Of a stretch of 24,451 nt of DNA, positions 14,729 through 18,561 are shown piece after piece. Source of the DNA: a virus; IMG/VR virus record IMGVR_UViG_3300025671_000512, positions 1 to 24,451 of that record; one strand, written 5' to 3'. The translations under genes were made by a program, and so were the position numbers. Each line of letters opens with the position of its first letter. Within the stretch, counting starts at the first letter, position 1. The notes beneath the pieces are model-generated. The model saw only the letters and a program-made list of their open reading frames with translations, searched no databases and was not told the origin of the DNA.

Positions 14729-15526
14729 CTATTCTCCTGTCTGAATGTCCATGTAAGCCGCGATCACTTCGGCCGCGACTTGCGGGACAATGGCGTTACC
14801 GTAGCCGCGCAGGCGTCCCACTCTGGCGGATACCCCATGAGCCAGCGGCTGAAGGCCGGATTGAGTTGGCCTGGCTTTGCCGTCGCGGCAGGGGAGCCAG
14901 ACGAGGTCGTTCCATGATGGGAAATCATCCTCACGTCCCGACCGAGATCCTTGTTCTTGCTGGCTGGACCCGTGGCTCCTCTGCCATCGGCTACTTGTGG
15001 CGTGGCCCAACTCGTCAACATTGGCTTCGGCCACGAACCAAAGCCGTTGTCGGATGTGCGGTGCGCCGACGCTGTGTGCGCCCAATACGGTCGCCCCGAT
15101 GGCGTAACCTTCACCTTCCAAGTCTGTCGAAACAAGGTCGAGCCAGCCGTGCCCAACTGCGCTTGCAACTTGTTCGCCAAACACTGGGCCAGGGCGACAC
15201 TCGCGGATGAGCCTGAACCACTCAGGCCAGAGGTGGCGGGAGTCAGCAGCTCCTTCGCCTTTCCCCGCCGCCGAGAACGGCTGGCAGGGGCAACTACCCG
15301 TCCAAACAGGTCGGTCGTCGGGCCACCCGGCAAGTCGGAGGGCGAGACTCCATCCGCCGATGCCGGCGAAGAAGTGGCACTGTGTGTAGCCAACGAGATC
15401 TGCTGGTTGGACTTCGGTAATGCTGCGCTCATCCACATCTCCCGGCGCGATTAGATCGGCCTTAATCAGTTCCCGCAACCATGCGGCGGCTTTGGGGTCA
15501 AATTCGTTGTAGTAGGCGGCCGTCAT
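14729..15526 (-). CDS. DNA (cytosine-5) methyltransferase, 265 aa
   Basis: This enzyme adds a methyl group to C5 of cytosine in DNA, using S-adenosylmethionine. Motif I is FFAGIGGWSLAL (residues 52-62), motif IV GSCPCQPFS with catalytic Cys81, motif VI reads FGEQV (Glu118, where ENV is usual), motif VIII is IRQRLWFVA, and motif X ends RGYGNAIVPQVAAE. The target-recognition stretch (about 170-210) is short. At 265 aa it is smaller than most bacterial relatives but typical of compact phage enzymes. It is ATGA-coupled to the upstream gene. No restriction partner is visible, so protection against host restriction or regulation is likelier than a complete R-M system. Most of its codons also overlap another long frame. 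Confidence 0.9.
   Translation of the reverse strand: MTAAYYNEFDPKAAAWLRELIKADLIAPGDVDERSITEVQPADLVGYTQCHFFAGIGGWSLALRLAGWPDDRPVWTGSCPCQPFSAAGKGEGAADSRHLWPEWFRLIRECRPGPVFGEQVASAVGHGWLDLVSTDLEGEGYAIGATVLGAHSVGAPHIRQRLWFVAEANVDELGHATSSRWQRSHGSSQQEQGSRSGREDDFPSWNDLVWLPCRDGKARPTQSGLQPLAHGVSARVGRLRGYGNAIVPQVAAEVIAAYMDIQTGE
14764..15438 (-). CDS. Overprinted protein inside the methyltransferase gene, 224 aa
   Basis: A second open frame (+1 relative to the methyltransferase) spans 675 of its 798 nt. The translation is not random-looking: it carries TDLFGRVVAPASRSRRRGKA, LTPATSGLSGSGSSAS, a GTAGSTLFRQTWKVKVTPSG block, then RTSDNGFGSWPKPM and a C-terminal LNPAFSRWLMGYPPEWD unit. I recognise these blocks from uncharacterised phage proteins often annotated beside or across DNA-methyltransferase genes. 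Function is unknown. The ATG at 15438 has no obvious ribosome site, so translation may depend on coupling, or the real start may differ. The overlap itself is certain; expression is inferred from the apparent conservation. Confidence 0.6.
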   Translation of the reverse strand: MWMSAALPKSNQQISLATHSATSSPASADGVSPSDLPGGPTTDLFGRVVAPASRSRRRGKAKELLTPATSGLSGSGSSASVALAQCLANKLQAQLGTAGSTLFRQTWKVKVTPSGRPYWAHTASAHRTSDNGFGSWPKPMLTSWATPQVADGRGATGPASKNKDLGRDVRMISHHGTTSSGSPAATAKPGQLNPAFSRWLMGYPPEWDACAATVTPLSRKSRPK

Positions 15527-15807
15527 GCGGTATAGGTCTCCAGCGTGGCGGCAATCAGGCTGGGGTCGGATGCGAGGGCAAGGATCTTCTGGCTCTCTTT
15601 GTCCCTGAAGTGCTGCAGAATTTCTGCTTCGGGTGTGCCGTAGTGCCGACGCAGGATAACGGTTTCCGCAGCATGACGCCGACGCTCGGCCACCCAGTTC
15701 TTGGGGCCGGCCTCAGGCTGGGCACGATGCCATGCAAGACGTTCCTGCAGACGGCGGGTAATCAGGGCGGCGGGAAGGGAGACGCTGAAGCCGTATGAAG
15801 TATCCAT
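15523..15807 (-). CDS. Small phage protein with leaderless-type start, 94 aa
   Basis: The product starts MDTSYGFSVSLPAALITRRL. It is mainly helical and basic in the middle (RLAWHRAQPEAGPKNWVAER, RRHAAETVILRRHYGTPEAE) and ends ALASDPSLIAATLETYTA. The AEILQHF segment resembles a helix-turn-helix opening but is not convincing. No Shine-Dalgarno is present: a sigma-70 -10 box (TAATCT) ends 6 nt before ATG 15807, so the mRNA probably begins at the start codon. The stop overlaps the methyltransferase ATG. As first gene of an operator-bearing promoter it may be regulatory; this is inference. Confidence 0.7.
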   Translation of the reverse strand: MDTSYGFSVSLPAALITRRLQERLAWHRAQPEAGPKNWVAERRRHAAETVILRRHYGTPEAEILQHFRDKESQKILALASDPSLIAATLETYTA

Positions 15808-18021: not shown

Positions 18022-18561
18022 CTACTCAACACTCCACGTTTCAGTCTGACGCTTCAACCGAGGCCACTTCACTGATGATGTAAAAGACTTATCTTGCACA
18101 AGTATGTGATTTGTGGGCTGTGCCGTGAACCGGCCATTGTCCAATTTTATAAAATAAAACTCCTTGGCTTGTTCAGGTTCTGAACTGAACCCGTCACACA
18201 TTGGTATCAACGTAAACATGTATCGACCACTGAGTTCTTTTTTATTTCGGAGCCTGACAAGCACAGGCGCGGCCTCAAGAAACGGATATTCCACCACACT
18301 AAATTGATGACCATAGCAATCCCACGTTTGTCCGTCAGATGGCTCCCAACAATCAATATTCATAATGTGTGACAACTTGTGCAGCGGAACATTCCGGTAG
18401 ACCGCTCCGGATTCCAGCATCACATGGCATCCAAACGTGCGACCCGGAATACTCACAACGCCAAACCACACAACACGCTCCCAAAACCTATTTCCAAACG
18501 TGTTAGCCTGAACGTAGCAATAGTTGTGACGTGGCAACGGCCCCGCGCCCGAATAAATCAT
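18022..18561 (-). CDS. Uncharacterised protein, visibly more A/T-rich gene, 179 aa
   Basis: A GGAG about 9 nt before ATG 18561 supports this start, which overlaps the stop of a 13-codon frame. The product starts MIYSGAGPLPRHNYCYVQANT and contains FWERVVWFGVVSIPGRTFGC, HVMLESGAVYRNVPLHKLSH, then WDCYGHQFSVVEYPFLEAAP and a lysine-rich C-terminus. It looks like a compact mixed alpha/beta protein rich in aromatics and Cys. Base composition is clearly lower in G+C than its neighbours, which suggests recent acquisition. No family is recognised with confidence. Confidence 0.75.
   Translation of the reverse strand: MIYSGAGPLPRHNYCYVQANTFGNRFWERVVWFGVVSIPGRTFGCHVMLESGAVYRNVPLHKLSHIMNIDCWEPSDGQTWDCYGHQFSVVEYPFLEAAPVLVRLRNKKELSGRYMFTLIPMCDGFSSEPEQAKEFYFIKLDNGRFTAQPTNHILVQDKSFTSSVKWPRLKRQTETWSVE

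Follow-up and report, generated by a model that had tools for sequence, protein, structure and literature searches.

Motif IX usually resides in the same chain as the other motifs of C5 methyltransferases, the known two-chain enzymes being the exception. In M.EcoHK31I, one such enzyme, the beta gene is reportedly found in an alternative frame within the alpha gene, and both chains are said to be required. According to the published description (PMC3404938), this two-polypeptide C5 methyltransferase (YGGCCR; Lee 1995) carries motifs I–VIII and X on its large chain and motif IX on its small chain, and M.AquI, also a two-subunit C5 methyltransferase, carries both motifs IX and X on its small subunit. 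Here we describe a phage locus at which a methyltransferase gene (A) and an open reading frame nested within it (B) very probably encode, to judge from their sequences and those of their relatives, the two subunits of a single DNA cytosine-5 methyltransferase that is anatomically similar to M.EcoHK31I.

The window analyzed here, a stretch of 24,451 bases that constitutes a single IMG/VR virus record, bears portal, scaffold, major head, and terminase genes on its minus strand, according to the neighbor annotation that was sampled; an open reading frame at 18022–18561 (minus strand) matches a phage ferredoxin family (phrog_3704, E 3e-24). Gene A (15526..14729, minus strand) starts 11 bases after a Shine-Dalgarno-like GGAG (15538..15541, minus strand; read from the sequence) and encodes a 265-residue C5-cytosine DNA methyltransferase, the putative large subunit, which belongs to PF00145 (E 5e-17) and to phrog_363 (E 3e-85). 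Its assignment to PF00145 is borne out by an M.HhaI-like fold, the AlphaFold model (mean pLDDT 79) having matched M.HhaI with a Foldseek E of 3e-8, and by a series of motifs on the minus strand, whose named residues are invariant in alignment A2: motif I (FAGIGG, 15353..15370; F53, A54, G55, and G57), motif IV with the catalytic PCQ (15281..15289; P80 and C81), motif VI (GEQV, 15167..15178; G117 and E118), motif VIII (QRLWFV, 15032..15049; R159 and R161), and motif X (GYGNAIVPQ, 14780..14806; G243, N244, and A245, the assignment of this motif being further supported by hhalign). By alignment and hhalign, motif IX is absent from A, and the columns that represent it in single-chain enzymes align with B instead.

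B (15438..14764, minus strand; 224 residues from its first ATG) lies entirely within A, in the +1 frame relative to it. The original prediction had called attention to this long second frame and to peptide blocks within it that seemed to recur in phage proteins; the frame is indeed present over 224 codons and contains the quoted blocks, and its phage relatives form the families phrog_1008, phrog_31772, and phrog_27243. The match to phrog_1008 has an E of 1e-24 (with B 7–159 as the best stretch) and that to phrog_31772 reaches E 8e-11, while Pfam and NCBIfam, searched with B, returned no relevant model. A small correction concerns the start codon, which is likelier to be the second in-frame ATG (15430..15432, minus strand) than the first, for a predicted product of 222 residues. 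A Shine-Dalgarno-like GGGAG, read from the sequence within the A coding region (15439..15443, minus strand), sits six bases upstream of this second ATG at 15432, and no other combination of Shine-Dalgarno sequence and start codon in the B frame of the window scores better than these two (−7.4 kcal/mol). Across 101 loci, the mean for the best B-frame combination is −5.8 kcal/mol versus −2.6 kcal/mol in a synonymous null (z = −11, p 8e-14), and B in this respect has a conserved ribosome-binding site of its own.

Modeled alone, B folds poorly (pLDDT 62, pTM 0.28), and its comparison with solved structures gave no match, a result that carries little weight given the low quality of the model. The N-terminal third is poorly conserved and predicted to be disordered. 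The best-predicted part of the model (pLDDT 74–89 by block) is a conserved block, GSTLFRQTWKVKVTPSGRPYWAHTASA (15064..15144, minus strand), a predicted beta-hairpin encoded over A motifs VI–VIII, with column identities of 0.44–0.50 versus 0.22–0.28 in the null. Further downstream, at the end of B, its motif IX (LNPAFSRWLMGYPPEW; 14818..14865, minus strand) is recognized from its block identity and from an hhalign match to the C-terminus of single-chain methyltransferases (E 9e-8).

A single open reading frame of this length, taken by itself, is unremarkable, the +1 run of the window having a p of about 0.045 when the null preserves the A protein and codon usage; the evidence across relatives is decisive. 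Among the best 80 IMG/VR loci chosen by A alone plus the window copy, every one (81/81) has a +1 frame that runs open over 208 codons or more. In a second set, of 80 GTDB loci chosen by B, the overlap with A recurs with an unchanged +1 offset (80/80); the frequency of B among A loci is not readable from this set by itself because it was selected on B. When the codons of A are resampled according to local usage and its protein is left unchanged, 274 stops are expected within the +1 open region of 53 non-redundant A-selected loci; none is seen, and stops in that frame of close relatives were part of what the original prediction gave as its refutation. As the region so counted is the longest open run, we added a statistic over the full length, by which the mean +1 run is 266 codons versus 120 in the null (p<0.05 in 96% of loci), and the mean +2 run, serving as control, is 69 versus 77.

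The same picture emerges from conservation across 41 loci that are less than 68% identical in A, whose +1 translations reach a mean column identity of 0.380 versus 0.249 expected from a synonymous null. A codons 11–50, an internal control, remain near the null by blocks (0.25 to 0.33 vs 0.24 to 0.31), an indication that the excess conservation of B does not stem from common descent. At A codons 221–230, which encode B motif IX in the second frame, column identity is 0.78 in B, 0.63 in A, and 0.27 in the null; the +2 frame rises there as well, to 0.60, less than B, as frozen synonymous sites would cause it to do. B is conserved above chance and locally above A. The possibility had been raised that both frames are under selection and that the evolution of B is locked to that of the enzyme, with the rate of synonymous change in A as a check; this rate is far from normal, the overlap being under strong synonymous constraint, and together with the stop counts it bears out selection on both frames and ties the evolution of the second frame to the methyltransferase.

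Relatives that hold the entire enzyme on one chain reveal what B corresponds to. In the actinophage proteins Hamulus gp68 and Jabberwocky gp4, motifs I–VIII, a variable region of PTP repeats, a WMM block equivalent to motif IX, and motif X follow one another in one frame, and in Gordonia Upyo 54/53, Peaches 77/76, and RemusLoopin 34/35 the methyltransferase parts are distributed over two successive chains. Columns 39–58 of the single-chain C-terminus align by hhalign with B 191–210 (motif IX, E 9e-8) and columns 60–92 with A 230–263 (motif X, E 2e-4); since the columns go to B and then to A, meeting at 58/60, the two frames share out what is a single conserved C-terminus. Single-chain C-termini also match the phrog_1008 profile. 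The label "motif IX" rests on the position before motif X, a WLMGxP pattern, and PHROG membership, as a search of the single-chain C-terminal profile against the PDB recovered neither the M.HhaI nor the M.HaeIII motif IX by sequence. In 14 distinct single-chain relatives, all with an in-frame motif IX, the +1 frame contains 131 stops versus about 153 expected, a rate near expectation, with at least two in each, and no overlap is maintained in them. One high-GC single-chain relative still has a +1 run of 354 codons, an indication that single cases mislead. In Propionibacterium phage B22 gp50 (L254:76-2175), motif IV has an intein-like insert of ~300 residues at its catalytic PCQ.

The comparisons show dual coding, the conserved start signal of B, a partition that puts motif IX in one frame and motif X in the other, and the lack of a maintained overlap in single-chain relatives. 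In the two-subunit enzyme that we propose, the domain for AdoMet binding and catalysis, with motifs I, IV, VI, VIII, and X, would come from A, while B, presumably initiated from its own ribosome-binding site within A, would contribute motif IX together with what is probably a portion of the small DNA-reading domain. Once assembled, the two chains would form the active enzyme, whose most likely role is to methylate the phage genome against host restriction. Of the roles initially envisaged for B, namely a partner, an inhibitor, or an anti-restriction protein, the evidence points to the first, a subunit with motif IX and probably target-recognition elements, and the latter two find no such backing, given that B holds at a collinear position the motif that A lacks. 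A broader and more speculative idea, which we consider possible though rather less probable than its opposite, is that a large family of phages has shifted motif IX and the PTP-repeat variable region of a single-chain methyltransferase into an overlapping frame, making B a separately evolving specificity subunit and letting catalysis and target reading evolve in two frames of the same DNA.

Several other accounts of the second frame deserve consideration. B could be a true second protein that is not a subunit, such as an inhibitor, a regulator, or an anti-restriction protein encoded over a complete methyltransferase; dual coding by itself is compatible with this, as are the poor conservation and predicted disorder of the N-terminal third of B. 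We regard it as unlikely, because motif IX is missing from A and present at the collinear position in B, and because the single-chain relatives that have motif IX in frame contain +1 stops. Programmed frameshifting might instead fuse B to A, yielding one long chain with motif IX and no free B, a scenario to which the known single-chain homologues and the canonical motif order on the DNA, with IX in frame B followed by X in frame A, lend some appeal. A single chain with motifs I–VIII, IX, and X would, however, require two shifts in opposite directions, and B has a conserved Shine-Dalgarno sequence and start codon of its own, making such fusion very improbable.

The least credible account, to which we assign a negligible probability, holds that GC-rich codon usage and the conservation of A leave the frame open as a by-product, and that the similarity of B to database entries is a shadow of A. 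The p of about 0.045 for the window run by itself would suit it, and shadow similarity does exist, the B profile matching the DNA of the single-chain Graduation gp47 across a stop; as the entire explanation, shadow similarity is ruled out by the codon nulls. The absence of all 274 expected stops, +2 run lengths that behave like the null, conservation of B in excess of A at motif IX, and the enriched B start signal all speak against a by-product.

Across phages, the A/B overlap is strikingly widespread, yet neither Pfam nor NCBIfam has a model for B. The hosts of named phages with the pair are Escherichia, Burkholderia, Xanthomonas, Rhodobacter, Klebsiella, and Erwinia; phages of Paenibacillus and Lactobacillus hold overlapping pairs that are more distant and that also match the B profile. 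The "C-specific methylase" and "Mte8-like protein" of Kagunavirus K1ind1 and gp56/gp57 of Paenibacillus phage Jacopo share the nested +1 arrangement and the match to the B profile, and in both cases the annotation states no relation between the two proteins. B is variously recorded in public databases as "Mte8-like protein" (K1ind1) or "DNA methyltransferase" (Jacopo), or is left unannotated (BcepC6B). Two loci, L061:1794-3290 and L047:1233-2789, contain long inserts with both frames kept open; the B-frame insert of the former has weak HNH matches (E 0.003, below the curated cut-off), that of the latter looks HNH-like by eye without a Pfam match, and Rfam introns at gathering score were not found in the long-insert loci. 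In three further loci (L041, L043, and L046), A matches occur in different frames, which suggests methyltransferase frameshifts or sequencing errors.

With A and B, two functionally linked proteins share one DNA segment in an overlap that is long, widespread, and very well sampled, and a natural control exists in the one-frame homologues of the enzyme, where the second frame is not kept open; the locus is therefore a good test bed for the origin and upkeep of overlapping genes. A further suggestion is that many phage genes annotated as "DNA methyltransferase" cover only part of an enzyme, such that cloning of the single gene may yield inactive protein.

How, then, does this locus compare with the described systems? 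A small-chain gene nested in another frame of a large-chain gene, as reported for M.EcoHK31I, is present in the window. The overlap put forward in the original prediction is real and widespread; it is not unprecedented, since by the published description M.EcoHK31I divides its motifs between two polypeptides in the same way as A and B, with I–VIII and X on the large chain and IX on the small one (PMC3404938), and because of this precedent the novelty is modest. A literature search for a described phage overlap of the A/B kind found none, which does not show that none exists. M.EcoHK31I belongs to a bacterial restriction-modification system, whereas A/B is a phage gene, beside which no endonuclease was recognized among the neighbors sampled; and the target-recognition domain was placed in the large subunit of M.EcoHK31I, a point against the proposal that B carries part of it here. 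The single-chain actinophage methyltransferases (phrog_363 plus phrog_1008) are homologous to A in their N-terminal part and to B in their C-terminal part with motif IX and the PTP repeats, and differ in having all of it in one frame, with no overlap maintained. M.AquI resembles A/B in that the catalytic and C-terminal parts are on separate chains, yet its motif layout is that of Gordonia Upyo 54/53, unlike the window, where motif X stays on A.
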